DNA from: Sphingopyxis sp.
GTDB lineage: Bacteria > Pseudomonadota > Alphaproteobacteria > Sphingomonadales > Sphingomonadaceae
Direction of reading: 5' to 3'
NCBI RefSeq assembly: GCF_016463645.1
Contig: NZ_JAEMQX010000006.1
Location: forward strand, 1-64,000
Length of the DNA: 64,000 nt
In this document: piece by piece, positions 18,643 to 33,397 of the stretch
Position numbering within the stretch: the first letter of the stretch is position 1
How the letters are laid out: each line of letters opens with the position of its first letter
The notes under the pieces: generated by a model
What the model was told of the DNA's origin: nothing
What the model saw: only the letters and a program-made list of their open reading frames with translations
Databases searched by the model: none
Made by a program: the position numbers and the translations under genes

Positions 18643-19554
18643 GTGGTGCGTGCGCCGATGCAGGCCGACTATCTGGGGACGGAGATCGATTTCGCCGCTC
18701 CCCTCGGCGAGCCCGCGCTGCTGCCGCCGGACAGCGTCCAGTGGCGCGTCTACAAGAACCCGATCGCGCTTGGCATCGGCGGTATCGCCGCGGTGCTGCT
18801 CGAATTCGCCGAGCCGCGCATCCGGTCGGGCGTGTGGGATCATTCGACCTACAAGGTCGACCCGATCGGCCGCTCGCGCCGCACCGGCCTCGTCGCGATG
18901 CTCGCCTGCTACGGCCCGGCGAGCACCGCGAAAGAGGTGATCGGACAGGTCAACCGGATGCACGGCAAGGTGAAGGGCGAGACCCCGGCGGGGGACAGAT
19001 ATCGCGCGATGGACCCGGCGCTGCTCGACTGGGTCGCAGCGACCGCTTCCTATGGTTTTCTCATGGCCTACGACCGTTTCGTCCGCCCCGTCAGCGACGC
19101 CGACAAGGACCGCTTCATGGCCGACGGTGATGCGATCGGGCGCGAATTCGGCGCGCGGCGCACGCCGCCGACGGTGGCCGCCTTCATGGAGATGATGGCC
19201 GAACTCGAACCGCGCTTCGAGCCGCATCCGATCATCTTCGAATTCCTCGATATCATCCAGTCGGGCCGCGCCGCGCCCGGCGTGCCGCGTTTCCTGCACC
19301 GCGCGATCGCGCGCGCGTCGGTGTCGTTGCTTCCCGACCATATCCGACGGAAGCTCGATCTGGGGCGGCGCTTCGATCTGACGCTGCTCGACCGCACCGC
19401 GCTGCGCATCGCGGGCTGGCTCGCCGATCGTCACGTCGACCGCGCCGCGCCGCATTGTCAGGCGAGCGTCCGGCTCGGCCTGCCGCACGATTTCCTGTTC
19501 AAATCGCCCGCCGAGCAGCGGCGTTTGCTTGGCAGGCCCGCGATCGCGGCCTAG
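18643..19554 (+). CDS. Oxygenase MpaB family protein (DUF2236)
   Basis: A 303-residue protein with a GTG start at 18643, 9 bp after AGGAG. It carries the ER/MpaB/latex-clearing-protein domain: NPIALGIGGIAAVLLEFAEPRIRSGVWDHS, DPIGRSRRTGLVAMLACYGP and RYRAMDPALLDWVAATASYGFLMAYDRFV, the last two being typical heme-pocket regions with candidate axial His residues. Characterised relatives cleave polyisoprene (Lcp) or meroterpenoid chains (MpaB), or act in gamma-glutamyl-type peptide catabolism (EGF-like ergothionase neighbours). Its place directly after a TonB receptor suggests it acts on the imported compound. Its stop overlaps the convergent amidohydrolase stop. Confidence 0.85.
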   Translation: MVRAPMQADYLGTEIDFAAPLGEPALLPPDSVQWRVYKNPIALGIGGIAAVLLEFAEPRIRSGVWDHSTYKVDPIGRSRRTGLVAMLACYGPASTAKEVIGQVNRMHGKVKGETPAGDRYRAMDPALLDWVAATASYGFLMAYDRFVRPVSDADKDRFMADGDAIGREFGARRTPPTVAAFMEMMAELEPRFEPHPIIFEFLDIIQSGRAAPGVPRFLHRAIARASVSLLPDHIRRKLDLGRRFDLTLLDRTALRIAGWLADRHVDRAAPHCQASVRLGLPHDFLFKSPAEQRRLLGRPAIAA

Positions 19555-21248
19555 GAGCAGCGCCCGAAGCCGGGGCCGCGCACCGCGCGCCCGGGGGTCG
19601 CGCCGCTGTGCTCGCCGTCCCGCAGCACGCCAACGCCGTTGACGAACACATCGCGCACGCCGACCGAATATTGGTGCGGCTGCTCGAAAGTCGAGCGATC
19701 GCCGATCGTCGCGGGATCGAAGACGACGACATCGGCATAATAGCCGGGCTTCAGTGCGCCGCGATCCTTGATGCCGAGATTGGTCGCGGGCAGGGTGGTG
19801 AGCCGGTACACCGCCTGTTCGAGCGGGATCAGTTTCTCGTCGCGGACATAGCGGCCGAGCAGCCGCGCGACATTGCCATAGGTGCGCGGATGCGCGCCCG
19901 ATTTCAGGAACACGCCTTCGGGCGCCTGCGACGCGGCGTCGGAGCCGAAGCTCATCCACGGCAGCTGGATCTGCTTGCGGACATTGTCCTCGGACATCAG
20001 GAAATAGACGGTCCCGACGCGCGAGCCATCCTCGACGACGAGGTCCATCGCGGTCTCTTCGGGTGACTTGCCGCGCATCGCCGCGACCTCGGCCAGCGTC
20101 TTGCCGGTCAGCGGCTTGAGCGCATCATTCTTGAACCCCGACAGGATCATCTTGTCGGCCCCCGCGCCGAAATAGAGATTCTCCCAGTCGCTGCCGGGCT
20201 TCTTCATTTCCTCGGCGACGCGGGCGCGGGTTGCAGGGTCCTTCAGCCGCTCGATCCATTGCTCGAGCCCCCCTGCCTGCACCCAGGTCGGCATCGCGGC
20301 GTCGAGTCCGGTTGCGCCCGCGGTATAGGTATACATGTCGGTCGTGATGCGCAGCCCCGCGGCCCGCGCGTCCTCGATCTTCTTCACGATCGTGTCGAGC
20401 TTGCCCCAGTTGCCGCGTCCCGCCATTTTCAGGTGATAGATTTCGGCGGGCGCGCCCGAGCGGCGCGAAATCTCGACCAGCTCGTCGACCGCCTCCTCGA
20501 TCCGGTCGCCTTCGGATCGCATATGGCTGATATACATGCCGCCGCATTTCGCGGCCTCGCTGGTCAGCGCGACGAGTTCGTCGGTCTCGGCGTAGGAACC
20601 GGGCGCGTAGATGATCGAACTCCCGACCCCCATCGCGCCTTCGTTCATCGCCTGCTTCACCAGCGCGCGCATCCGGCCGAGCTGTTCGGGGGTCGGGTCG
20701 ACGTCCCCTTCGCCCAGTTCATGGACGCGCACCGTCGCGGCGCCGACGAAGCTCGCGACATTGGTCGAGATGCCGCGCTTTTCCAGATAACCCAGATAAT
20801 CGCCGAGGCTCGTCCACTCGATCGGAAATTTGATGTCGCCCTGTCGCTCGGTTTCGAGGGCCTTCATCGTTGCGTTCATCGGCCCCATCGACCAGCCTTC
20901 GCCCATCACTTCGAGCGTTACGCCCTGCCTGATGTCGCTCTGGCTTTTCGGGTCGGCGATCAAGGATTCGGTCGCCCAGCTCAGCATGTTGATGAAGCCC
21001 GGCGCGACCGCCATACCCTTTGCCGCGACCTCGCGCTCCGCCTTGCCCGCAACCTTGCCCACCGCGACGATGCGGTCGTCCCTGATCGCGACATCGCCGA
21101 CGACAGGCGGCTTGCCCGACCCGTCATAGATCGTGCCGCCGCGGATGATCAGATCGTAGGTCGGCGTTTCTGCGGCAAGCGGCGCCGAAACCAGCATCGA
21201 GCTGCACAGCAGCAAAAGCGAAGGTGTCAAGCGCCGGGGCCGTGTCAT
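19551..21248 (-). CDS. D-aminoacylase-like amidohydrolase with altered metal site
   Basis: A secreted amidohydrolase of 565 residues with a signal peptide (about 1-26, ending PLAAETP). The family frame is clear: DLIIRGGTIYDGSGKPPVVGDVAIRDDRIVAVG, VAPGFIN, ISHMRSEGD (His), EIYHLKMAGR (His), FGSDAAS (Asp), HPRTYGNVARLLGRYVRDEKLI, and LKPGYYADVVVFDP. However, the HxH after PGFID, expected as HTH, is replaced by NMLSW (residues 87-91), and the GNCG cysteine is replaced by GEGW. One metal may still bind through the two His. Family members release acyl groups from N-acyl-D-amino acids. It lies 23 bp after the XRE-cupin regulator in the same operon. Confidence 0.85.
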   Translation of the reverse strand: MTRPRRLTPSLLLLCSSMLVSAPLAAETPTYDLIIRGGTIYDGSGKPPVVGDVAIRDDRIVAVGKVAGKAEREVAAKGMAVAPGFINMLSWATESLIADPKSQSDIRQGVTLEVMGEGWSMGPMNATMKALETERQGDIKFPIEWTSLGDYLGYLEKRGISTNVASFVGAATVRVHELGEGDVDPTPEQLGRMRALVKQAMNEGAMGVGSSIIYAPGSYAETDELVALTSEAAKCGGMYISHMRSEGDRIEEAVDELVEISRRSGAPAEIYHLKMAGRGNWGKLDTIVKKIEDARAAGLRITTDMYTYTAGATGLDAAMPTWVQAGGLEQWIERLKDPATRARVAEEMKKPGSDWENLYFGAGADKMILSGFKNDALKPLTGKTLAEVAAMRGKSPEETAMDLVVEDGSRVGTVYFLMSEDNVRKQIQLPWMSFGSDAASQAPEGVFLKSGAHPRTYGNVARLLGRYVRDEKLIPLEQAVYRLTTLPATNLGIKDRGALKPGYYADVVVFDPATIGDRSTFEQPHQYSVGVRDVFVNGVGVLRDGEHSGATPGRAVRGPGFGRCS

Positions 21249-21271: not shown

Positions 21272-21907
21272 TTATCCGTGAAGGCTCATCAGCGAATCCA
21301 TCAGCCCGTCGTCGGCGCTCGAACAGACGCCGAGCACCAGTGCCTCCTCAAAGCCGTCGGCGACGACATAGGCGTGGCCCATCGACGAATCGATGTAGAT
21401 GCCCTGACCGACGTCGAGCGTGACGGGATCGTAGAATTCGCTGTGCACCTCGATCCGGCCTTCGAGGACATAGATGAACTCCTCGCCCTGATGATGGACG
21501 AGTTCGCCGAATTCGCGCGCGCTGTGCGCGCGGATGCGCGTCAGGATCGGGATCATCCGTTTCTGGCGCAAATCGGTGCAGAGATAATGATAATCGTAAT
21601 TGTCGGTTGTGACGCGCGCCGCGCGCTCGATCGTCCCGATGCTGCGGCGCCCGGTCACACGCGGCGCCATCTCTTCCTCATCCTCGGCGAACAGGTCCGA
21701 CATGCGAATCTTGAGTCGCTGGCTCAATTGCTGGAGCTTGTCGTAGCTGAGCGTCAGCCGGTCATGTTCGACCTTGGACAATGTCGATACGGGAATGCCC
21801 GACTTCGCGCTCATTTCCTTGAGCGTCCAGCCGTTTCGCGCGCGAATCCCCTTCATCACCGCGCCGAGCGTCGGCGGGGTTGCACGGTCCGCCATCAGTT
21901 TTTCCAT
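21272..21907 (-). CDS. XRE-family transcriptional regulator with cupin sensor domain
   Basis: A 211-residue regulator. Residues 14-72 form an XRE helix-turn-helix (VMKGIRARNGWTLKEMSAKSGIPVSTLSKVEHDR), and residues 125-200 a small cupin barrel (GELVHHQGEEFIYVLEGRIEVHSEFY, VTLDVGQGIYIDSSMGHAYVV). This architecture is used by regulators of amino acid, polyamine and aldehyde metabolism. It is the first gene of a two-gene operon with the D-aminoacylase-like enzyme and is divergent from the beta-lactamase/DgcA operon. It is the best candidate to bind the matched promoter sequences at 21915 and 25035. Confidence 0.9.
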   Translation of the reverse strand: MEKLMADRATPPTLGAVMKGIRARNGWTLKEMSAKSGIPVSTLSKVEHDRLTLSYDKLQQLSQRLKIRMSDLFAEDEEEMAPRVTGRRSIGTIERAARVTTDNYDYHYLCTDLRQKRMIPILTRIRAHSAREFGELVHHQGEEFIYVLEGRIEVHSEFYDPVTLDVGQGIYIDSSMGHAYVVADGFEEALVLGVCSSADDGLMDSLMSLHG

Positions 21908-21914
21908 TCCATAT

Positions 21915-21954
21915 TTGACAATTTTCCAATCAGGATCATTATGTCCCTATCGGG
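21915..21954 (+). promoter_or_regulatory. Promoter/operator upstream of the beta-lactamase-DgcA operon
   Basis: TTGACA at 21915 is a perfect -35 box, with CATTAT as a possible -10 after 16 bases. The stretch TTGACAATTTTC continues into a segment that matches the dipeptidase promoter at 25049 in 18 of 22 positions. A second shared block, ATGTCCCTATCGGG (21941), matches ATGTCCTAAACGGG at 25035. AGGATCA and TGTCCCT around the -10 form a loose inverted pair. Likely bound by the adjacent XRE-cupin protein. Confidence 0.6.
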
Positions 21955-22037
21955 CTAACAGATGTTGGTCCCTTGGTAAGGGGTCGCGCGGCTTGCCGCA
22001 AGGTGTGACAGGGCGCGCCGGATAAAAGGGGAAAGCG

Positions 22038-24020
22038 ATGCGTTTCATCCGCAAGGCGATGATCGGGCTGGCGGCTTTTGCCGCGCTGCCACTGGCCGCG
22101 CAGGGGCCGGTGCCGGCCCCCGCCGCGAAGAAAGTCGAAGCCGCTGCCGTTCCGGCCGCAAAGTCCACCGCGACGCCCGTCGCGCTCGATCCCAAGGATC
22201 TCGAAGCCTGGATGGACGGCTATCTGCCCTATGCGCTCGAACGTGCGCGCATTCCGGGAGCGGTCGTGGTCGTCGTGCGCGGCGGGCAGGTGGTGCTCGA
22301 AAAGGGCTATGGCTTCTCCGACGTCGCGAAAGGTGCGCCGGTCCTTCCCGAGACGACACTTTTCCGCCCGGGGTCGGTGTCGAAGCTTTTCACCTGGACG
22401 GCGGTGATGCAGCAGGTCGAGGGGGGCAGGATCGACCTCGACAAGGACATCAACACCTATCTCGATTTCAAGATTCCGCCCTATGAGGGCAAGCCCGTGA
22501 CGATGCGCAACATCATGACGCACACGGCAGGTTTTCAGGAATCGGTGCGCTATCTGATCAGCAGCGATCCCAAGGCGGTCATGGCGCTCAAGAAGCAGAT
22601 GCCGCTCGCGCTGCCCGACCGCGTCTTCGCGCCGGGTACGACGCCGGCATACTCGAACTATGCCACGGCGCTCGCGGGGTATATCGTCGAGCGCGTCAGC
22701 GGCGAGCCGTTCGACGATTATGTCGAAAACCATATCTTCAAGCCGTTGGGTATGACGCACTCGTCGTTCCGTCAGCCGCTTCCGGCCGGTCTCGTGCCGC
22801 ATATGTCAAAGGGCTATCCCGACGTCACAGGCAAGGCGCAGCCTTTCGAAATGGTCATTCCGGCACCCGCGGGCAGCCTGTCGGCGAGCGGTTCCGACAT
22901 GGCGAAGTTCATGATCGCGCACCTCAACGACGGCGCGGGGTTGATGAAGCCCGAAACCGCGAAGATGATGCACGATTTCAAGGCGCCCGGCGTCGGACCG
23001 CTCAACAGCATGGCGCTCGGCTTCTACGAGCAGTGGGTCAACGGCCATCGCGCGATCGCGCACGGGGGCGACACCGTCTGGTTCCACTCCTATCTATGGC
23101 TGTTCCCGGATGCCGACACCGGCGTCTTCATCTCGATGAACAGCGCGGGCAAGGAAGGCGCGGCGGGGGCGGTGCGCAGCGCATTGTTCCACAAATTCGC
23201 CGACCGCTACCTGCCTGGCCCGGCCGAAAAGGCGGCCGAAGTCGATGCCAAGACCGCTGCGCAGCACGCGCAGATGATGGCCGGCCATTACATCAGCAGC
23301 CGGGGTTCCTTCACCAACTTCATGAGCCTGTTCGGCCTGTTGGGGCAGGCGACGATCGGCCTGACCGAGGATGGCAAGATCACGCTGCCCGCGCTCGACG
23401 GTCTGGGAGCCGGCGCGCGCGACTGGGTCGAAGTCGAACCCTTTGTGTGGCGAGACACAGGTACGGGTGAACGCCTCGCGGCCGAGGTCAAGGACGGCCG
23501 CGTCGTACGCTGGAGCCTCGATGCCGGATCGCCCTTCATGGTCTTCGAACCCGCGCCCGCCGGCGTCAACGCAGGCTGGCTCAATCCGGCGCTGATCCTT
23601 GCCTTCGGCATCATCCTGCTCGCGGCGCTGGCGTGGCCGGTACGCGCGCTGGTGCGCCGCAATTTCAAGGCCGAGTTCGCACTTCAGGGCCCATCGCTTC
23701 GCGCGTATCGCCTGTCGCGCATCTTCGCCTGGCTCGCGATCGGCGCGCTCGCGGGCTGGATCGGGCTGATCGCGGCCTTCTCTGCCGATATCGGCAGCAT
23801 CGGCGGTCCGCTCGACTGGCTCATTCATCTGCTGCGCATCCTGACGCCGCTCGCCGCCTTCGGCCTGTTCGCCACCGCGGCGTGGCATCTGTGGCTCAGC
23901 ATCAAGGACAAGCGCCGCTGGACGATGAAACTCGGCGCGGTGCTGCTGATCCTTGCGGCTCTGGTACTCGTCTGGGTGACGCTGGCCTTCCATCTCTATG
24001 GCTTCGGGATGGTCTATTGA
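22038..24020 (+). CDS. Beta-lactamase-fold serine hydrolase with C-terminal membrane domain
   Basis: A 660-residue exported protein with a signal peptide (about 1-21, ending PLAAQ). The class C/DD-peptidase-like catalytic domain shows SxxK (SVSK, 113-116), YxN (YSN, 205-207) and HGG (342-344). After about residue 520 there is a C-terminal part with roughly four hydrophobic helices (ALILAFGIILLAALAWPVRALV, AWLAIGALAGWIGLIAAF, LTPLAAFGLFATAAWHLWL, LGAVLLILAALVLVWVTLAF), so the enzyme is probably anchored in the inner membrane facing the periplasm. It likely hydrolyses peptides, perhaps with D-residues, rather than being a resistance enzyme. The next gene (DgcA-like) overlaps by one base. Confidence 0.87.
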   Translation: MRFIRKAMIGLAAFAALPLAAQGPVPAPAAKKVEAAAVPAAKSTATPVALDPKDLEAWMDGYLPYALERARIPGAVVVVVRGGQVVLEKGYGFSDVAKGAPVLPETTLFRPGSVSKLFTWTAVMQQVEGGRIDLDKDINTYLDFKIPPYEGKPVTMRNIMTHTAGFQESVRYLISSDPKAVMALKKQMPLALPDRVFAPGTTPAYSNYATALAGYIVERVSGEPFDDYVENHIFKPLGMTHSSFRQPLPAGLVPHMSKGYPDVTGKAQPFEMVIPAPAGSLSASGSDMAKFMIAHLNDGAGLMKPETAKMMHDFKAPGVGPLNSMALGFYEQWVNGHRAIAHGGDTVWFHSYLWLFPDADTGVFISMNSAGKEGAAGAVRSALFHKFADRYLPGPAEKAAEVDAKTAAQHAQMMAGHYISSRGSFTNFMSLFGLLGQATIGLTEDGKITLPALDGLGAGARDWVEVEPFVWRDTGTGERLAAEVKDGRVVRWSLDAGSPFMVFEPAPAGVNAGWLNPALILAFGIILLAALAWPVRALVRRNFKAEFALQGPSLRAYRLSRIFAWLAIGALAGWIGLIAAFSADIGSIGGPLDWLIHLLRILTPLAAFGLFATAAWHLWLSIKDKRRWTMKLGAVLLILAALVLVWVTLAFHLYGFGMVY

Positions 24021-25027
24021 TGGCGACGCAAAGCACGCGGGGATTGACGCTCGACCTTCGGGTCGAGCGCTTTCCCTATCACCAGCCTTTTCGCATTTCG
24101 GGTCATGTCTTCACCGAGACCGCTCTGCTCGTTGCCGAATTGTCCGACGGCGGGCATGTCGGTCGCGGCGAGGGGGCGGGGGTCTATTATCTCGGCGACG
24201 ACATCGACCATATGCTGTCCGAGGCGACGCGGGTGCGCGGCGCGATCGAAAGCGGTGCGACGCGCGAAGAATTGCAGCATCTCCTGCCTCCGGGCGGCGC
24301 GCGCAACGCGCTGGACTGCGCCTTCTGGGACCTCGAGGCGAAACAGACGGGGCGGCCGGTATGGAGTCTTGCGGGTCTCGATCCGCCCAAGGCGTTGCGT
24401 TCGACGCTGACGCTCGGTGCCGACAGCCCGGAGAATATGGCCAAGGCCGCGCTTGCCATCGATCCCGAGGCGCCGATCAAGGTCAAGCTGACGGGGGATC
24501 TCGCCGACGATATCGCGCGCGTCGTTGCGATCCGAACCGCGCGGCCTGACGCGTGGATCGGCGTCGACGCCAATCAGGGTTATGACGTCGACACGCTCGC
24601 CGAATTGTTGCCCGTGCTGGTTTCGACCCGCATTTCGCAACTCGAACAACCGCTGAAGCGCGGGCGTGAGGCCGATCTCGACGGATTGAAGCGGCCCTTG
24701 CCCTTCGCCGCCGATGAAAGCGCGCTGTCGCTGGCGGATACCGCATCGCTCGTCGGACGCTTCGATATCGTGAATATCAAGCTCGATAAATGCGGCGGGC
24801 TGACCGAAGGCCTCGCGATCGCGCGGCAGGCGAAGAAGCTCGGGCTCGACGTCATGGTCGGCAATATGATGGGCACCAGCCTGTCGATGGCGCCCTCGTG
24901 GCTGGTCGGGCAGCTCTGCGACATCGTTGATCTGGACGGACCGACCTTCCTCGCGCGCGATCGCGTGCCCGGGGTGGCATATCGGAATGGAATGATCGAC
25001 TGTCCGGCAGGAATTTGGGGTTCATGA
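24020..25027 (+). CDS. dgcA: Enolase-superfamily racemase/epimerase, DgcA-like
   Basis: A 335-residue protein of the muconate-lactonising subgroup. The active-site set is complete: K154-V-K156 and K254 (NIKLDKCGG) as acid/base pair, and D183 (VDANQGYD), E209 (LEQP) and D232 (ADES) as Mg ligands. A DxD near the end (D304-L-D306) is found in enzymes that bind the amino group of Ala-Glu dipeptides. It could be an L-Ala-D/L-Glu epimerase or an N-acetyl-D-glutamate racemase (DgcA). The presence of a DgcN-like gene 3.4 kb downstream favours DgcA. The start ATG shares a base with the beta-lactamase stop; the ORF track start at 23633 is a read-through of the wrong frame. Confidence 0.8.
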   Translation: MATQSTRGLTLDLRVERFPYHQPFRISGHVFTETALLVAELSDGGHVGRGEGAGVYYLGDDIDHMLSEATRVRGAIESGATREELQHLLPPGGARNALDCAFWDLEAKQTGRPVWSLAGLDPPKALRSTLTLGADSPENMAKAALAIDPEAPIKVKLTGDLADDIARVVAIRTARPDAWIGVDANQGYDVDTLAELLPVLVSTRISQLEQPLKRGREADLDGLKRPLPFAADESALSLADTASLVGRFDIVNIKLDKCGGLTEGLAIARQAKKLGLDVMVGNMMGTSLSMAPSWLVGQLCDIVDLDGPTFLARDRVPGVAYRNGMIDCPAGIWGS

Positions 25028-25034
25028 CAATTTC

Positions 25035-25076
25035 ATGTCCTAAACGGGTTGACAATTTTCTGATTAGGACAATAGT
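25035..25076 (+). promoter_or_regulatory. Promoter/operator upstream of the dipeptidase-TonB-DgcN operon
   Basis: TTGACA (25049) with AATAGT 16 bases downstream gives a plausible sigma-70 promoter. The region repeats the two sequence blocks seen at 21915, in the opposite order. It also contains a perfect 8-base inverted repeat, TGTCCTAA (25036-25043) and TTAGGACA (25064-25071), flanking the -35 box. This is a good candidate for a dimeric repressor site of the XRE-cupin regulator. Confidence 0.62.
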
Positions 25077-25111: not shown

Positions 25112-26254
25112 ATGACGTCGTCATTCCCGATGACGCGCCGCGCGGCACTCGCGGGTGCGGTCGGGGTCGCTTTGTCTGCGCCCATGATCAATCGCGGTGC
25201 CTACGCTTTCGCGGCGGCGCCCGCGAAGATCTACTCGCGCCGCGCAGTCGACCTTGTCGCCTCGTCGCTCGTCATCGACATGCTCGCGCCGCTCAAGATC
25301 ACCATGTCGCCGGACTATGTCGCGCATCGGCTGACCGACGCCGAGACGGCTGAATTCAGGGCTTCCGGCATCACCGGTTTCCACAACGCCTACGGCCTCG
25401 GCGGTCCCGGTGCGAAGGGGCAGGCGCTCGAGTTTCTTGCCGGTTGGCAGGGCTTTGCCGGGCGCAACAGCCACGTCTTCACGCTCGTCGATAGCGTTGC
25501 CGATCTCGATCGCGCCAAGGCGGACAAAAAATGCGCGGTCATCATGGGAATCCAGAACGCCGAGCAATTCGAGAAGATCGAGGACGTCGCGCTGTTCCGC
25601 CGCCTCGGGCTTCGCTGTGCCCAGCTTACCTACAATACACAGAATATGATCGGCTCGGGTAGTACCGAACGCGTCGACGGCGGCGTCAGCGACTATGGCG
25701 CGGCGATTGTCGCCGAGATGGAGAAGCAGAAGATGCTGATCGACGTCTCGCATTGCGGTGACAGGACGACGCTCGACGCCATCGCAATCGCCAAGGGGCC
25801 GATCGCGATCACCCACAGCAACGCCCGCGCGCTCGTCGACCATCCGCGCGTCAAGACCGACGCGGCGATCAAGGCGCTCGCGGCGAAGGGCGGGGTGATG
25901 GGCATCACCGGGGTGCGCATGTTCGTGCGCACGAGCGACCCGACCAACGTCGGGCATATGGCCGATCATATCGATCATGTCGCGAAGCTCGTGGGTGTCG
26001 ACCATGTCGGCATCGGTTCCGACGCCGACCTCAACGGCTACGATGACATGCCACCGCAAGAATATGCCGCGCTCAAGGGCAGTTACAAGGGCAGTTACGC
26101 CTTTCGCGACAAGATCGACATCGATGGCTTCGACCATCCGCTCAAGACCTTCGACCTCGTCGAGGAACTCATTCGCCGCGATTATTCGAACGATAACATC
26201 CGGGCCGTGCTCGGTGGCAATTTCCGCCGCCTGCTCGCCCAAGTCTGGGGGTAA
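25112..26254 (+). CDS. M19-like membrane dipeptidase homologue, Tat-exported, with altered metal site
   Basis: A 380-residue protein with a twin-arginine-type leader (TRRAALAGAVGVALSAP). The M19 renal-dipeptidase barrel is recognisable from GIQNAEQFEKIEDVALFRRLGLRCAQLTYN, DVSHCGDRT (H214), AITHSNARALVDHPRV (H235), and GVDHVGIGSDADLNGY. The first metal motif, normally D(G/T)H(N/x)D, is VIDML (54-58), and the bridging Glu of the IEGG segment is Gln148. Only the second-site histidines remain, so it may use one metal ion, have changed chemistry, or bind rather than cleave peptides. It is the first gene of a six-gene operon. Confidence 0.83.
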   Translation: MTSSFPMTRRAALAGAVGVALSAPMINRGAYAFAAAPAKIYSRRAVDLVASSLVIDMLAPLKITMSPDYVAHRLTDAETAEFRASGITGFHNAYGLGGPGAKGQALEFLAGWQGFAGRNSHVFTLVDSVADLDRAKADKKCAVIMGIQNAEQFEKIEDVALFRRLGLRCAQLTYNTQNMIGSGSTERVDGGVSDYGAAIVAEMEKQKMLIDVSHCGDRTTLDAIAIAKGPIAITHSNARALVDHPRVKTDAAIKALAAKGGVMGITGVRMFVRTSDPTNVGHMADHIDHVAKLVGVDHVGIGSDADLNGYDDMPPQEYAALKGSYKGSYAFRDKIDIDGFDHPLKTFDLVEELIRRDYSNDNIRAVLGGNFRRLLAQVWG

Positions 26255-26258
26255 GACG

Positions 26259-28445
26259 ATGAACAAGGGACTTTTTATTGCGGCAAGCGTCGTCGCGGTC
26301 GCCGCAGCGACACCGGCCCACGCGCAGGAAGCGGGCGCAATCGAAGCTGCCGGCGAAATCGTCGTGACCGCGCAAAAGCGTGTGCAGAATGTGCAGGACG
26401 TGCCGATCTCGATTGCGGTCGTCAGCGGCGAGGAACTGCAGGAGCAGGGCTCGGCATCGCTGGTCGACTATGCGGGCTATGTCCCCGGCATGAACGTCAG
26501 CAATGGCGGCACGCCGGGACAGACGACGATCACGCTGCGCGGCGTCGCGCCGCTCAACGCCAGCCAGACCGTCGGCATCTATCTCGACGATGCGCCGGTC
26601 GGGTCGAGCGCGCTCTACAACCGCGCCGGGCAATTCACCATCGACCTGATGCCCTATGACCTCGAACGCATCGAGGTGCTCAAGGGGCCGCAGGGCACCC
26701 TCTACGGCGCGAGCTCGATCGGCGGGCTCGTCAAATATGTGACCGTCCAGCCCGACACGCGCGAATTCAAGGTGCGCGCGGGCGTCGAAGGCTTTACGAT
26801 CAAGAATGCCGGCAGCCTCGGCTGGGGCGGGCAGGTCTATGCCAACGCGCCGATCGTCACCGACACGCTCGCGATTTCGGGCAGCTTCGCGTGGCGCAAG
26901 ACGCCGGGCTGGGTCGACAGCGTCAACAATGCGACGCTCAAGGACCAGAATGATTATGAACAGCGCGGCGGCCGCGCGGCGCTGCTGTGGCAGCCGACGC
27001 CCGAACTAAGCGTCAAGCTCGCGGGCATCTGGCAGTCGCTCGATTCCGATGGCAACGGTCTTTATGCGGCTGATCTCGACGGCAACCGGCTCGGCAACGG
27101 CCATTCGTTCAACAATTATGTCCCCGAATCCTACGACGTCGATCTCGACTATTATTCGGCGACGATCGATTATGATTTCGGCGCTGCGACGCTGACTTCG
27201 GCGACCACCTACAGCAAGACGCAGAGCCGCCAGTTGCAGGATGCGAGCTATGCGTTCGGCGTGCTCTTCCCGTTTCTCACCGATGGTGAGATCCCGCCGG
27301 GTATCACACCTTTCTCGCTCGACCTGGGGCTCAAGAAATGGACGCAGGAGTTGCGGCTCGCCTCGCCGAGCGGCGGTCGCTTCGAATGGATGATCGGCGG
27401 CTTTTTCACCGACGAGGAAACGAGCAATTCCCAACTCGTCCGCTCGTTCGACATGGACGGCAACGTCATCGACGGCCTCGATCCGCTCGCAATCGTCGGC
27501 CTGCCCGCGACCTACAAGGAATATGCGATCTTCGGCAACGCGACCTTCAAGCTGAGCGAGCAGTTCGAGGTCACCGGCGGCCTGCGCTGGGCGCGCAACG
27601 AGCAGACCTTCACGCAGATCAGCGAGGGCGCGATCGTTCCCAGCGCCAACGATCCGGGCGAGTCCGCCGAAAGCGTCTGGACCTTCTCGGTCAGCCCGCA
27701 GTTCCATATCAATGAAGACGCGATGCTCTATGCGCGCGTCGCGACGGGCTATCGACCCGGCGGCCCGAACGTCATCGTTCCCAATGTCCCGCCGAGCGTC
27801 GATGCCGACCGCATGACCAATTACGAGGTCGGGCTGAAGGCCGATTTCGCCGACCGCATGGTGTCGGTCGACGCCGCCTTCTTCTGGATGGACTGGACCG
27901 ACATTCAGGTCACGCGCGCCTTCGGCGGCGTGTCGGGCGGCGCCAACGGCGGCAAGGCAACGAGCAAGGGCTTCGAAGGTAGCCTGGCGCTGCGCCCGGC
28001 ACCGGGCCTGACCATCAGCGCGACCGGCAGCTATACCGATGCGGCGCTCAGCGAAGACGTGCCCGAGATCAGCGGCGTCGACGGCGACCGCTTGCCCGCG
28101 GTACCGAAGTTCAGTGGCGCGCTGCGCGCCGATTACGCGTTCGAACTGGGCGGCGGCAACAAGGGCAGCTTCGGCGCCGGTATCCGCCACGCGAGCAACC
28201 GGCTGTCGCTGGTCGAGAGCGATCCGCTCGTCGCGCGCGCCAAGGCTTATACCTCGGTCGATATCAATGCGTCGGTGACCTTCGACGACCACTGGACGCT
28301 ACGCGCCTATGCGCGCAATCTCCTCGACAACAAGGGCGAAATGGCGCGGTCGACGCTGGCCGACGGGCTCAACCAGCCAAGTTTCCTCGCGATCTCGCCG
28401 TTGCAGCCGCGCACGATCGGCGTGGCGCTCGACATGGCTTTCTGA
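26259..28445 (+). CDS. TonB-dependent receptor
   Basis: An outer-membrane receptor of 728 residues, starting MNKGLFIAASVVAVAAATPAHAQEA (signal peptide), then EIVVTAQKRVQNVQDVPISI, plug motifs TLRGVAPLNAS, IYLDDAPVGSS and LERIEVLKGPQGTLYGASS, and a barrel ending in ALDMAF. The start at 26259 follows the dipeptidase stop by 4 bases; the track ORF from 25977 overlaps the dipeptidase in another frame. In the context of dipeptidases, DgcN and beta-lactamase-fold hydrolases, the ligand is probably a peptide or peptidoglycan fragment. Confidence 0.92.
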   Translation: MNKGLFIAASVVAVAAATPAHAQEAGAIEAAGEIVVTAQKRVQNVQDVPISIAVVSGEELQEQGSASLVDYAGYVPGMNVSNGGTPGQTTITLRGVAPLNASQTVGIYLDDAPVGSSALYNRAGQFTIDLMPYDLERIEVLKGPQGTLYGASSIGGLVKYVTVQPDTREFKVRAGVEGFTIKNAGSLGWGGQVYANAPIVTDTLAISGSFAWRKTPGWVDSVNNATLKDQNDYEQRGGRAALLWQPTPELSVKLAGIWQSLDSDGNGLYAADLDGNRLGNGHSFNNYVPESYDVDLDYYSATIDYDFGAATLTSATTYSKTQSRQLQDASYAFGVLFPFLTDGEIPPGITPFSLDLGLKKWTQELRLASPSGGRFEWMIGGFFTDEETSNSQLVRSFDMDGNVIDGLDPLAIVGLPATYKEYAIFGNATFKLSEQFEVTGGLRWARNEQTFTQISEGAIVPSANDPGESAESVWTFSVSPQFHINEDAMLYARVATGYRPGGPNVIVPNVPPSVDADRMTNYEVGLKADFADRMVSVDAAFFWMDWTDIQVTRAFGGVSGGANGGKATSKGFEGSLALRPAPGLTISATGSYTDAALSEDVPEISGVDGDRLPAVPKFSGALRADYAFELGGGNKGSFGAGIRHASNRLSLVESDPLVARAKAYTSVDINASVTFDDHWTLRAYARNLLDNKGEMARSTLADGLNQPSFLAISPLQPRTIGVALDMAF

Positions 28446-28465
28446 GCGAATTGGAGTTGGACAAG

Positions 28466-29506
28466 ATGAACGCGCCCACCGGCAGACTGGCCGAAAGCCT
28501 GACCCTGCCGCAACCCTATCTGCTGTTCCTCGGCGACACGACCGAGGCGGGCTATGCCAAGACCGCCTTTGGCTTGGCTGACTGGGCCGCCGACCGCTGT
28601 GTCGGCGAGTACGGGATCGGTGCCTGCTCGGTCAGCGCCGGCCTGCCGCGGCTGTCGCCCGCCGAGGCGCGCGGGGCGGGGGCACGGTCGCTGGTGATCG
28701 GCGTCGCAAACCAGGGCGGCGTCATCGGCGACGCGTGGGTCGCCGTGCTCGTCGAGGCGATGGAGGCCGGGCTCGACATCGTCAGCGGCCTCCACACCCG
28801 GCTGACGAGCATCCCCGCGCTCGTCGAGGCGGCGCGGCGCACCGGTCAACGGTTGATCGACGTCCGAACACCGCCCCCATCGATCCCGATCGCCAACGGC
28901 CGCAAGCGGAGCGGCAAAAGGTTGCTGACGGTCGGCACCGATTGTGCGCTCGGCAAGAAATACACCGCGCTTGCGCTGCACCGCGCCTTTGTCGCGCGCG
29001 GGATCGACGCTGATTTTCGCGCGACCGGCCAGACCGGCATCATGATCGCGGGCGGCGGGATACCGATGGATGCCGTCGTATCGGATTTCGAGGCTGGGGC
29101 GGCGGAAATATTGAGCCCGGACGCGCCCGGCAATCACTGGGATCTGATCGAGGGGCAGGGGTCGATCTTCAACCCCGCCTATGCGGCGGTCTCGCTGGGG
29201 CTGTTGCACGGCAGCCAGCCCGACGTGTTCGTCGTCTGCCACGATCCGGCGCGCAAGGTGATCCTCGGCATGGAAAGCTTCGCGCTGCCCGGCATCGAGG
29301 AGGTGATCGACCTGACGATCCGCCTCGGCAGCCGCACCAATCCGGCGATCCGCTGCGGCGGGGTGAGCCTCAACACCTCGGCCTATGACGCTGCCGCCGC
29401 CGAGGCGCTGATGGCGGCCGAACAGCAGCGGCTAGGACTGCCGGTCGCCGATCCGATCCGCGGCGGCGCATCGTTCGACGCGCTCGTGGACAATATTCTC
29501 GCATGA
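28466..29506 (+). CDS. dgcN: DUF1611 family protein, DgcN-like N-acetyltransferase
   Basis: A 346-residue DUF1611 protein. It has a Rossmann-like N-terminal part (YLLFLGDTTEAGYAKTAFGLADW) and a P-loop-like C-terminal part (VGTDCALGKKYTALALHRAF, residues 156-175), with GQGSIFNPAY, the VVCHDPAR segment and GGVSLNTSAY. The name rests on the reported DgcN, which acetylates D-glutamate so that DgcA can racemise it. The start at 28466 is 9 bp after TTGGAG. It is the third gene of the dipeptidase operon, and its stop overlaps the transporter start (ATGA). An older view of DUF1611 as a plain ATP-binding protein of unknown role cannot be excluded. Confidence 0.75.
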   Translation: MNAPTGRLAESLTLPQPYLLFLGDTTEAGYAKTAFGLADWAADRCVGEYGIGACSVSAGLPRLSPAEARGAGARSLVIGVANQGGVIGDAWVAVLVEAMEAGLDIVSGLHTRLTSIPALVEAARRTGQRLIDVRTPPPSIPIANGRKRSGKRLLTVGTDCALGKKYTALALHRAFVARGIDADFRATGQTGIMIAGGGIPMDAVVSDFEAGAAEILSPDAPGNHWDLIEGQGSIFNPAYAAVSLGLLHGSQPDVFVVCHDPARKVILGMESFALPGIEEVIDLTIRLGSRTNPAIRCGGVSLNTSAYDAAAAEALMAAEQQRLGLPVADPIRGGASFDALVDNILA

Positions 29507-30642
29507 GTGTGGGCGAGACGGGTGGCAGGTCGAGCTGGTTTCAGCGCTTCCTGCTGCCCGGCTTTGCACTGAAGGCCGTGATCATCGGCGGCGGCTATGC
29601 CACGGGGCGCGAATTGGCCGAATATTTCGTGCCGTCGGGGCCATGGGGCGGACTTTCCGCGATGCTGCTCGCGACGCTGGTCTGGAGCGTGGTCGCGGCG
29701 CTGACCTTCGCGCTGGCACGCAAGCTGGGCGCCTATGATTATCGCGCCTTTTTCAAAGGGCTTCTCGGCCCCGCCTGGGTCGCGTTCGAGGCTGCATATC
29801 TGATCTTCGTCGTCCTGATCCTCGCGGTGTTCGGCGCCGCGGCGGGCGCGATCGGCGCCGCGACCTTCGGCTGGCCCGAGCTTGCGGGGACGGCGCTGCT
29901 CGCGGTGTCGATCGTCGCGGTGACTGCGTGGGGCACCGGCGTCGTCGAGCAGATGTTCAAATATGTCTCTATCCTGCTCTACACCGTCTATGGCCTGTTT
30001 CTGGTCCTTGCGCTCGCCAGCTTCGGCGGACTGATCGGGCAGGGGTTCGCCAATGCCCCGCCGCCGTCGGGCAACTGGATGGCGGGCGGGCTGACCTATG
30101 CGACGTACAATATCGTCGGCGCGGTGGTGATCCTGCCCGTGCTGCGCCATCTGACCAGCCAGCGCGACGCGGTTGTCGCGGGGCTGATCGCCGGGCCGCT
30201 GTCGATGCTGCCCGCGATCCTCTTTTTCGTCGCGATGATGGCCTTCTATCCCGCGATCGGCGCCGAGACGCTGCCATCCGATTTCCTGCTGCGCCAGATG
30301 ACCGTGCCCGGATTTCATGTGCTGTTTCAGGTGATGATCTTCGCCGCCCTGCTCGAAAGCGGCGCGGGCGCGGTGCACGCGATCAACGAGCGCATTTCGG
30401 GTGCTGTCGAGGGCCGCGGGCGGCCGCCGCTGACGGCCGGCGCGCGCGCGATCATCGGTGCGGTGATCCTGACCGGTTGCATGTTCGTCGCGGGCGAGGT
30501 CGGCCTCGTCGACCTGATCGCCAGCGGATACCGCTTCCTCGCGTGGCTGTTCCTCGCCGTTTTCGTCCTGCCGCTCGTCACCATCGGCATCTGGCGCCTG
30601 CTGCGCCCGTCGACCGCTCCCCATATGGAGGCCCTGCCATGA
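29503..30642 (+). CDS. YkvI-like membrane transporter
   Basis: A 379-residue integral membrane protein with about 10-11 hydrophobic helices. Near the N-terminus LPGFALKAVIIGGGYATGRELAEYF resembles the first helix of the YkvI/LeuT-fold group; later pieces are TYATYNIVGAVVILPVLRHL and HVLFQVMIFAALLESGAGAVHAINER. Relatives are poorly characterised but fall near amino acid-polyamine-cation permeases, which would fit uptake of an amino acid or short peptide released in the periplasm. Both ends overlap neighbouring genes by 4 bases, so it is firmly part of the DgcN operon. Confidence 0.78.
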   Translation: MSVGETGGRSSWFQRFLLPGFALKAVIIGGGYATGRELAEYFVPSGPWGGLSAMLLATLVWSVVAALTFALARKLGAYDYRAFFKGLLGPAWVAFEAAYLIFVVLILAVFGAAAGAIGAATFGWPELAGTALLAVSIVAVTAWGTGVVEQMFKYVSILLYTVYGLFLVLALASFGGLIGQGFANAPPPSGNWMAGGLTYATYNIVGAVVILPVLRHLTSQRDAVVAGLIAGPLSMLPAILFFVAMMAFYPAIGAETLPSDFLLRQMTVPGFHVLFQVMIFAALLESGAGAVHAINERISGAVEGRGRPPLTAGARAIIGAVILTGCMFVAGEVGLVDLIASGYRFLAWLFLAVFVLPLVTIGIWRLLRPSTAPHMEALP

Positions 30643-32210
30643 AACGCCTGCTTGCCCTGTCGCTGATGCTGTCAGTCGCCGTGCCCGCATGGGCCGAACC
30701 GCCCGCCGACATCGGCGAAAGCGTCGAGGCGCTGCGCAAGAAGGTCGGCGCGGCGGGCGTGTCGATCGCGATCGTCGAGGACGGCAAGACGACGCTGTCG
30801 CGCGGCTGGGGCGTGCGCAAGATCGGGGAGAGCGCATCGGTCGACGCGCAGACGATCTTCCAGACCGGCTCGACCGGCAAGGCGATGACCGCCGCCGCGC
30901 TCGCGATCCTCGTCGACGAGGGCCGCATCGCGTGGGACGATCCGGTGATCAAGCATATGCCGTGGTTCCGCATGTACGACGCATGGGTGACGCGCGAGAT
31001 CACGATCCGCGATCTGCTCGTGCACCGCAGCGGGCTCGGGCTCGGGCAGGGTGACCTGATGTTCGTGCCGCGCACCCACCTGACGCGCAAGCAGACGGTC
31101 GAGCGCGTCGCTTACCTGAAGCCGCAGACGAGCTTTCGTTCGGCCTATGCCTATGACAATATCCTCTATGCTGTCGCCGGCCAGCTGATCGAGGAAGTCA
31201 CCGGCCAGACGTGGGAGGATTTCATCCGTTCGCGCGTGCTGCGCGCGGGGGGCATGAAGAATGCGACGAGCGACAGCGAGGATCGCTTCCGTATCCCCAA
31301 CCGCAGCTGGCCGCATGCGCGCCTGTCGGGACCGCTGCGCGGCCTTGGTCCGCAGGAAGCGCTTGATGAACGCGACGAACTCGGCCGCAACGGCGCGCCG
31401 GCGGGCGGTCTTGCTCTCAGCGCCGACGACATGGCGGCATGGCTCAAGATTCAGCTTGCGCACGGCGCGCTGCCGGACGGGAAGCGGCTGTTCAGCGAGC
31501 AGCAGGCCGCCGAAATGTGGGCTCCGGTCACCCCGATGCCGATCACGCCGCTGCCCGACGCGCTCAAGCCCGCGCAGCCGACGCAACAGGCCTATGCGCT
31601 CGGGTGGCAGGTGCAGGATTATCGCGGCCACCGCATCATCCAGCACGGCGGCGGCGTCTTCGGCTCGATCACGCGCGTCGTCATGATCCCCGACAAGAAT
31701 GTCGGCTTCGCGATCATGATGAACAGCGAGGACAGCGGGATGCTCCTCGGCCTCACCTATGATCTGCTCGACCATTATCTCGATCAGCCCGACTATGGCT
31801 GGATCGCGAAATGGGAGGACTGGTATCAGTCGCGGCTCGCGGGCGGAGTCGAGTTTCTGAAGCAGTCCGGGGCGTCGCCGGCGAAGTCGGGGCCGTCGCT
31901 CGCGCTCGCGGGCTATGCCGGCCGCTACCGCGATCCCTGGTATGGCGACATCGTCGTCGGATCGGGCGCGAAAGGCCTGACGATCGACTTCACCTCGACG
32001 CCGCGGATGGCGGGACGACTCAAGCATTGGCAATATGACAGCTTCGTTACCGAGTTCGACGATCCGGCGATCGAGCCCGCCTATGTGACCTTCGCGCTCG
32101 ATGCCGAGGGCAAGGTGGCGGGCGTGACGATGAAGGCGGTGAGCAAGATCGCCGACTTCAGCTGGGATTATCACGATCTCGACCTGAAGCCGGTGGAGGA
32201 CAAGAAGTGA
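30639..32210 (+). CDS. Beta-lactamase-fold serine hydrolase, exported
   Basis: A 523-residue exported enzyme with a signal peptide of about 19 residues (SVAVPAWAEPP). The catalytic motifs are SxxK (STGK, 78-81), YxN (YDN, 172-174) and HGGG later in the chain. A C-terminal domain after about residue 400 (LALAGYAGRYRDPWYGDIVV, GLTIDFTSTPRMAGRLKHWQYDSF) resembles the lipocalin-like DUF3471 tail of D-aminopeptidase-type hydrolases. It likely cleaves peptides or esters in the periplasm. The ATG overlaps the transporter stop and its own stop overlaps the next gene's GTG. Confidence 0.87.
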   Translation: MKRLLALSLMLSVAVPAWAEPPADIGESVEALRKKVGAAGVSIAIVEDGKTTLSRGWGVRKIGESASVDAQTIFQTGSTGKAMTAAALAILVDEGRIAWDDPVIKHMPWFRMYDAWVTREITIRDLLVHRSGLGLGQGDLMFVPRTHLTRKQTVERVAYLKPQTSFRSAYAYDNILYAVAGQLIEEVTGQTWEDFIRSRVLRAGGMKNATSDSEDRFRIPNRSWPHARLSGPLRGLGPQEALDERDELGRNGAPAGGLALSADDMAAWLKIQLAHGALPDGKRLFSEQQAAEMWAPVTPMPITPLPDALKPAQPTQQAYALGWQVQDYRGHRIIQHGGGVFGSITRVVMIPDKNVGFAIMMNSEDSGMLLGLTYDLLDHYLDQPDYGWIAKWEDWYQSRLAGGVEFLKQSGASPAKSGPSLALAGYAGRYRDPWYGDIVVGSGAKGLTIDFTSTPRMAGRLKHWQYDSFVTEFDDPAIEPAYVTFALDAEGKVAGVTMKAVSKIADFSWDYHDLDLKPVEDKK

Positions 32211-33397
32211 AGCGTCTTGCGACCCTGTTGGCGGCAACGGCCCTGTCGGCCTGCTCGGCCGCCGAGGACAAGCCGAAGGCACCCGAGGCCCCGCCGCACA
32301 GCCGGATGCTCGTGCTCGACACCCATCTCGACACGCCGCTGCATTTCGAGCGCGCGGGCTGGAGCTTTGCCGACCGCCACGGCCAGGCCAACGACATGGC
32401 GCAGCTCGATATCCCGCGAATGAAGGACGGCAATCTCGATGGCGGTTTCTTCGCCATCTATACCGAACAGGGGCCGCTGACGCCGAAAGGCTATGCCGAT
32501 GCGCTGGCCTTTGCGCGGGGGCGGTCGGAGCTGATCGACAAGACCATCGCCGCCAATTCGGCCACGATCGCCCCGGCGCTGACCTCGGCTGACGCGCTGC
32601 GGCTGAACAGGGAAGGCAAGCTCATCGCCTTCAAGTCGATGGAGAACAGCTATCCGCTCGGCGAGGACCTGTCGCTGCTCAAGGAATTCCACGACAAGGG
32701 GCTGCGTCTTGCCGGGCCGGTGCATTCGAAGGACAACCAGTTCGCCGACAGCGCGACGGGCGAGGGGCGCTGGAAAGGGCTGAGCCCGCTCGGCAAGCAA
32801 TGGGTCGCCGAAATGAACCGCCTCGGCATCGTGATCGATGCGAGCCATTCGTCCGACGCCGCGTTCGACCAGATTCTCGCGCTGTCGAAATATCCGATCC
32901 TGCTCTCGCACTCGAGCCTGCGCTCGGCCTATGATCATCCCCGCAATCTCGACGAAGGGCGGCTGAAAGCTCTCGCGGCAAAGGGCGGGGCGATGTGTAT
33001 CTCGACGATCTTCATGTCGGAGATGAATATGTCTCCCGCGCGGGGCGCGCTGTTCGGCAAATATGAGCGGATCGGCACATTGTCGTCCGCCGAGCAAGCC
33101 GACCTCAACCGCCAGTGGCGCGAACTCGACAAGACGGAAAAGCTGTGGGCGGCCGATTTCGACGATTATATGAATATGGTGCTGCGCGCGATCGAGGTCG
33201 GCGGCGTCGATCATATCTGCTTCGGTGCCGACTGGGACGGCGGCGGCGGCCTGCCGGGCTTCGAGGATATCTCGGCGCTGCCCAAGGTCACCGAGCGGCT
33301 GAAGGCCGCCGGTTATTCGGATGCCGATATCGAGAAGATGTGGAGCGGCAATATCCTGCGTGTGCTCGCGGCGCAGGGAAAGCCGGCGGCGCGTTAG
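32207..33397 (+). CDS. M19 membrane dipeptidase, lipoprotein
   Basis: A 396-residue zinc dipeptidase. It has a lipobox (LSAC, Cys16) after a short leader. The binuclear metal set looks complete: H40 and D42 in LDTHLD, E146 in KSMENS, H214 in DASHSS and H235 in LLSHSS; GADWDGGGGLPGFEDI gives the late Asp. The GTG start at 32207 overlaps the previous stop and is supported by GGAGG 8 bp upstream. It is the last gene of the six-gene operon, and unlike the homologue at 25112 it appears fully catalytic. It should hydrolyse dipeptides at the outer face of the inner membrane or in the periplasm. Confidence 0.88.
   Translation: MKRLATLLAATALSACSAAEDKPKAPEAPPHSRMLVLDTHLDTPLHFERAGWSFADRHGQANDMAQLDIPRMKDGNLDGGFFAIYTEQGPLTPKGYADALAFARGRSELIDKTIAANSATIAPALTSADALRLNREGKLIAFKSMENSYPLGEDLSLLKEFHDKGLRLAGPVHSKDNQFADSATGEGRWKGLSPLGKQWVAEMNRLGIVIDASHSSDAAFDQILALSKYPILLSHSSLRSAYDHPRNLDEGRLKALAAKGGAMCISTIFMSEMNMSPARGALFGKYERIGTLSSAEQADLNRQWRELDKTEKLWAADFDDYMNMVLRAIEVGGVDHICFGADWDGGGGLPGFEDISALPKVTERLKAAGYSDADIEKMWSGNILRVLAAQGKPAAR

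Follow-up and report, generated by a model that had tools for sequence, protein, structure and literature searches.

Which regulator governs two neighbouring operons whose upstream gaps carry nearly the same sequence? The question is raised by a 64,000-nt window (the whole stretch of DNA analysed) of a Sphingopyxis sp. draft genome (contig NZ_JAEMQX010000006.1), in which the gene for an XRE-cupin protein of 211 amino acids (21272..21907, minus strand; Pfam HTH_3 and Cupin_2) and a D-aminoacylase-like gene are transcribed divergently from an operon encoding an S12-type serine hydrolase and a DgcA-like racemase (operon A, 22038-25027). A second operon, for a dipeptidase, a TonB-dependent receptor and a DgcN-like protein among others (operon B, 25112-33397), starts after a gap of 84 bp. 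The gaps before these two operons are called gap A and gap B. We put at about 0.8 the probability that the XRE-cupin protein binds predicted operators in both gaps, represses both operons and limits transcription of its own. That this protein controls both operons and also itself had been proposed in a first-pass annotation of the same DNA, and comparative sequence evidence argues for it: operator pairs follow the orthologues of the regulator, they persist in two genomes where the regulator gene is unlinked (G019 and G060), and one operator of each pair lies within the promoter. The comparison took in about 100 genome loci in all.

The two gaps share TTGACAATTTTC at positions 21915-21926 and 25049-25060, and the 4.55-Mb draft genome holds no further mismatch-free copy. 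The annotation had counted 18 matches over 22 positions from there, and the ten bases after TTGACAATTTTC do differ at only four; a degenerate pattern for the 22 bases has exactly two matches in the window at up to three mismatches, against 0.00 expected from shuffles. The second shared block that it described was found as well (ATGTCCCTATCGGG at 21941-21954 and ATGTCCTAAACGGG at 25035-25048), a block that is not rare by itself (five matches at up to two mismatches, 1.46 expected), as was a perfect inverted repeat in gap B (TGTCCTAA/TTAGGACA at 25036-25043/25064-25071, its arms separated by 20 nt). Each gap contains one sigma-70-like promoter on the plus strand with 10 of 12 consensus matches and a 16-nt spacer, whose -35 end is formed by TTGACAATTTTC, and neither gap contains another promoter-like site (0.1 expected in shuffles). 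In gap A the -35 box TTGACA lies at 21915..21920 and the -10-like box CATTAT at 21937..21942; in gap B the corresponding boxes are TTGACA (25049..25054) and AATAGT (25071..25076).

Both gaps fit an arrangement of two 16-bp units whose starts are exactly 20 bp apart, namely TTTTCCAATCAGGATC-atta-TGTCCCTATCGGGCTA in gap A and TGTCCTAAACGGGTTG-acaa-TTTTCTGATTAGGACA in gap B, and the symmetrised consensus of these compact palindromes is TGTCCTAATTAGGACA. The predicted operator O1, which fills the 16-nt space between the -35 and -10 boxes of both promoters, occupies 21922..21937 in gap A and 25056..25071 in gap B (both plus strand), the latter being the strongest site of the window. The predicted operator O2 is situated 20 bp downstream of O1 in gap A (21942..21957, plus strand) and 20 bp upstream of it in gap B (25036..25051, plus strand). 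Since the units are palindrome-like, the opposite order of the shared blocks that had been noted in the two gaps means only that O2 follows the promoter unit in A and precedes it in B. At up to three mismatches, the tandem pattern matches gaps A and B alone in the whole genome of this strain. Single site matches elsewhere in the same genome (C47:8456) and in a genome without the regulator (G066) lack a second site at a distance of 20 bp and were regarded as chance hits.

This anatomy differs from the one first suggested, in which one inverted repeat around the -35 box served as the operator. The perfect repeat of gap B is real, but it consists of the outer arms of the two compact units; as an operator it was rejected, because gap A and several relatives (TGTCCTATTT) do not keep it, and the gaps are better read as two adjacent compact palindromes of about 16 bp with centres 20 bp apart. 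That the dimer instead binds a differently centred site, either this wide repeat (TGTCCTAA-N20-TTAGGACA) or an inner-arm inverted repeat, AGGAYM-N4-TGTCCY, is unlikely, although some observations speak for it and weigh against the compact sites. Inner-arm symmetry reaches 0.60 in A-type gaps versus 0.45 and 0.57 for the compact units, the O2 of gap B is strong in one arm only, and a symmetry test that was anchored on TTGAC and did not presuppose the compact sites failed to show a clear peak for the O1 axis of gap A; the top axis of that test lay inside the anchor itself and was partly forced by it, and the test was not counted. In B-type gaps, on the other hand, inner-arm symmetry drops to 0.30, compared with 0.38 and 0.58 for the compact units. 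Moreover, compact palindromes also occur alone, such as TATCCTGATTAGGATA, and near-perfect ones are found in Niveispirillum and at locus L114. The exact palindrome axis is likely that of the compact sites.

The blocks are conserved far beyond chance and represent a real, strongly conserved regulatory feature. Among 48 Sphingopyxis loci, gap A matches TTGACAATTTTC[CT]AATCAGGATCATTATGT[CT]C in every one and gap B matches its own consensus in 47; the -35 box of gap A is kept in all 48 and extends as TTGACA/TTGACG into the Gammaproteobacteria. In the sole exception for gap B (L068), block B has been lost together with the dipeptidase, the TonB receptor and DgcN. Elsewhere it stays before the next gene where the dipeptidase gene (L043, L047) or the DgcA gene (L048, L059) is missing. 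Had close relatives with the same gene order lost the blocks, this would have spoken against the proposed control; when checked in these loci, the blocks were not lost. At one locus (L047, genome G004), a short remnant of the start of the dipeptidase gene remains behind block B, between DgcA and TonB2, so that the gene was lost and the operator kept.

The pairs also reach beyond the genus. With a site matrix trained on Sphingopyxis sites only, pair spacings of 12-35 allowed and 200 dinucleotide shuffles per locus, the best gap A pair scored above all 200 shuffles in each of 13 loci of the family from other genera (regulator 63-85% identical), with a spacing of 20 in 12 of them and of 19 in the remaining one; pairs were likewise present in the second gap of eight loci (L111, L113, L114, L116, L117, L119, L122 and L123). 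In 80 named relatives, pairs above threshold, tallied over spacings of 17-24, were spaced by 20 (73 pairs), 19 (8), 17 (3) or 18 (2). Most of them precede the same pair of operons, in Sphingomonas, Erythrobacteraceae, Pacificimonas, Sphingosinicella and Niveispirillum, the last with the pair TTTTCTAATCAGGATC-atat-TGTCCTAATCAGGACA. Two gammaproteobacterial groups, Lysobacter and Steroidobacteraceae, retain TTGAC and O1 together with a weaker second unit.

These pairs accompany orthologues of the XRE-cupin regulator in other genera, families and classes, which argues against the improbable alternative that a different transcription factor, encoded elsewhere, binds the blocks and that the XRE-cupin gene adjoins them but has no function at these sites. 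Within Sphingopyxis itself, co-occurrence of regulator and sites looked perfect across 60 genomes. We discarded it as evidence, as the entire cluster is missing from genomes that lack the regulator and linked genes tend to vanish together; the co-occurrence is therefore not independent support for the regulator. More telling are genomes G019 and G060, in which the regulator beside the operon is gone (in G019 its place is occupied by efflux-type genes) and both operator pairs are kept before the S12 hydrolase and the dipeptidase. This missing adjacency, like the several XRE-cupin paralogues of related genomes, could be taken to favour a different factor. However, the only close XRE-cupin orthologue of these two genomes (67% identity), which is encoded 160-290 kb away and falls outside the Sphingopyxis group of the tree on a long branch, has a single near-perfect palindrome of the same kind, TATCCTGATTAGGATA, upstream. 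Its helix IPVSTLSKVEHDRLTL, moreover, is the one that is nearly invariant among the orthologues and different in the paralogues. A distant paralogue group, in turn, appears with what by eye is a different box, GCAAATATRTGC, as expected if sites follow the protein.

The sign of the control is a separate matter. That the XRE-cupin protein binds and activates, or switches between activation and repression, is a reading to which we give little credence; it draws on NceR, a related XRE-family regulator that is reported to activate its target (PMC10470515) and that leaves the sign here not certain, and on the position of one site upstream of the -35 box in gap B. In both gaps, by contrast, O1 lies between -35 and -10, which is a repressor position, both promoters are already near consensus, and the XRE-cupin proteins studied in Pseudomonas aeruginosa act as inhibitors (PMC7901475). 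That the similarity of the gaps reflects merely a shared strong sigma-70 promoter or a recently duplicated promoter segment, with no operator, is very improbable: both blocks do hold TTGACA with 16-nt spacing, but the spacer sequence, not conserved in sigma-70 promoters, ranks with the best-conserved parts in the 48 loci, the order of O2 is opposite in the two gaps and therefore not that of a copied segment, and the spacing of 20 is kept across genera.

The sites, their spacing, their match to the promoters, their conservation and their company with the regulator come from computation, and binding, repression, cooperativity and a ligand are what we infer. The XRE-cupin protein would act as a local repressor of a cluster for uptake and catabolism of dipeptides containing D-amino acids, its dimer binding compact palindromes of about 16 bp of the type TGTCCTRATYAGGACA. 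Since O1 exactly fills the promoter spacer, a dimer bound there would block RNA polymerase. A second dimer, about two helical turns away, would cover the start region in gap A and the upstream edge of the -35 box in gap B, and would probably help through cooperative binding. As the start codon of the regulator gene lies less than 10 bp from the promoter of gap A, binding should limit the regulator's own transcription too, so that both operons and the regulator/D-aminoacylase genes would be held down together. Cupin pockets are believed to serve as sensors for metabolites of the pathway, and the structure of a Vibrio cholerae XRE-cupin protein holds D-methionine (PMC7901475). Here, a small molecule of the pathway in the cupin pocket might release repression; judging from the gene content, our guess is a D-amino acid or a D-Xaa dipeptide, perhaps D-Glu-like.

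The regulator has the typical XRE-cupin architecture, with an N-terminal XRE/HTH_3 domain (PF01381) and a C-terminal cupin domain (PF07883), both above cut-off. Its closest named relatives are in Sphingopyxis (98% identity to Sphingopyxis sp. JAI108). The best NCBIfam match is PuuR, the XRE-cupin repressor of putrescine genes, which shares the domain architecture; assignment to PuuR was ruled out by a score of 44.7 bits against the NF007408 cut-off of 211, and the cluster is without putrescine genes. The regulator gene has two in-frame ATGs, at 21907 and 21895. The inner one, possibly the true start, shows the better conservation; a start at 21907 would leave almost no room before the promoter of gap A.

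Directly behind the regulator gene, and probably on the same transcript, lies the gene for a D-aminoacylase-like amidohydrolase (19551..21248, minus strand; Pfam Amidohydro_3), an order kept in many relatives. Operon A (plus strand) begins with a beta-lactamase-fold, S12-type serine hydrolase with a C-terminal membrane part (22038..24020; PF00144), for which all NCBIfam matches fall under the cut-off, and continues with the DgcA-like racemase, an enolase of the L-Ala-D/L-Glu epimerase type (24020..25027). Operon B (plus strand) consists of genes for an M19 membrane-dipeptidase family protein (25112..26254; PF01244), a TonB-dependent outer-membrane receptor (26259..28445), a DgcN-like DUF1611 protein (28451..29506), a putative transporter without a Pfam match (29503..30642), a second S12-type hydrolase (30651..32210; AmpH/class C beta-lactamase models match below cut-off) and, as the last gene, a second dipeptidase-like protein (32207..33397). 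The latter was recognized by reading its translation by eye; its order is kept in relatives, and an NCBIfam search (Pfam was not run on this gene) gave no match. Gene order is conserved in about 30 loci. The probable function of the cluster is the uptake and degradation of small peptides with D-amino acids. In one genome (contig G032:C45; L064 and L065) each end of a contig carries a copy of it, the two pointing in opposite directions and apparently identical in the parts seen, which is perhaps an assembly artefact.

The 5' leader of operon A contains a further block, CCCTTGGTAAGGGGTCGCGCGGCTTGCCGCAAGG (21970-22003), that is strongly conserved in the genus and changed in G019 and G060. A riboswitch or other structured leader was rejected, as the Rfam search found no match to this leader (the only hit, mir-598 with an E-value of 0.44, was taken as chance) and it folds no better than shuffles; the block is perhaps another protein-binding site.

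Related arrangements occur at other loci. Upstream of the genes of more distant XRE-cupin proteins from other families (37-42% identity), pairs of the TTTTC..GAAAA type are likewise present, with a spacing of about 19 bp (L089, L091). The paralogous XRE-cupin group that seems to have the different box GCAAATATRTGC upstream (L074-L082, 41% identity) is encoded beside S12-hydrolase and DgcN-like genes, and in three of these clusters a related pair, TATCAAAATTTGAAAA-taa-TGTCCYAAACAGGTCA, with a spacing of 19 stands just before the DgcN-like gene (L078 5724, L081 5576, L082 5604). Several Sphingopyxis genomes possess a second, unlinked dipeptidase'-DgcN'-hydrolase' operon (L098-L103 and L110; e.g., G005:C1:2954127 and G014:C3:223372), with about 62-66%, 70% and 48% identity, respectively, and with a palindrome pair of the same type upstream, e.g., TTTTCTAATCAGGACG-atat-TGTCCCAATTGGGTAT. 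A close XRE-cupin gene next to this operon was not found, and the genome of our strain has no second dipeptidase of this group. This operon may be a further target of the regulator or may belong to a paralogue.

Palindromic sites beside the regulator's own gene and over a target promoter are what local XRE-cupin repressors have, a likeness seen here by comparison only. In P. aeruginosa, PsdR acts from two sites next to its own gene to repress mdpA and dppA3, which encode a dipeptidase and a peptide-binding protein (PMC7901475, PMC10965056). The Sphingopyxis regulator resembles it as an apparent local repressor of the XRE-cupin type that neighbours genes for dipeptidases and peptide uptake, with two target promoters beside its own gene and compact palindromic sites, which here are predicted. 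In contrast to PsdR, whose recognition sequence TTAAGN5CTTAA was not found on reading the sequences of gaps A and B, the sites come in pairs 20 bp apart, uptake is via a TonB receptor, and the cluster includes DgcA/DgcN-like genes. DbuR of Pseudomonas putida, an XRE-cupin repressor of a D-branched-chain amino-acid operon, has a 20-bp palindrome over the promoter and a 44-bp footprint (PMC12724383); our regulator would likewise be an XRE-cupin repressor of D-amino-acid catabolism beside its target operon with a palindrome over the promoter, but the DbuR palindrome (AATTCTCATATATTAGAATT) and the enzymes differ. The DgcN-DgcA pathway converts D-Glu to L-Glu (PMC10845958). The two operon genes match the NCBIfam models of both proteins over their full length, yet score under the respective cut-offs (DgcN, 446.1 bits versus 480 for NF041892; DgcA, 361.2 bits versus 400 for NF042940), and they stand in a dipeptide-uptake cluster under an XRE-cupin protein. 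These matches just below the cut-offs suggest that the genes may act on D-glutamate.

The control itself is thus of an ordinary kind, that of PsdR- and DbuR-type local repressors, here unusually well resolved. A wider proposal, tentative and held at well under even odds, is that of an XRE-cupin regulon for the use of D-Xaa dipeptides across Alpha- and some Gammaproteobacteria, in which lambda-like tandem operators 20 bp apart would differ in site order and strength between the two promoters, so that the enzyme and uptake operons would open at different inducer levels. The present analysis supplies a widespread cluster with a likely regulator, with the DNA code that it would read (about TGTCCTAATTAGGACA, two copies at a distance of 20 bp) and with a set of about ten genes, a regulon of which the literature searched gave no description. 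Further targets can be looked for with the motif as it stands, and the unlinked regulator with its kept sites is a natural case that makes the model easy to test. For the bacteria that carry it, the cluster probably provides the ability to feed on peptides containing D-amino acids, such as fragments of cell walls.

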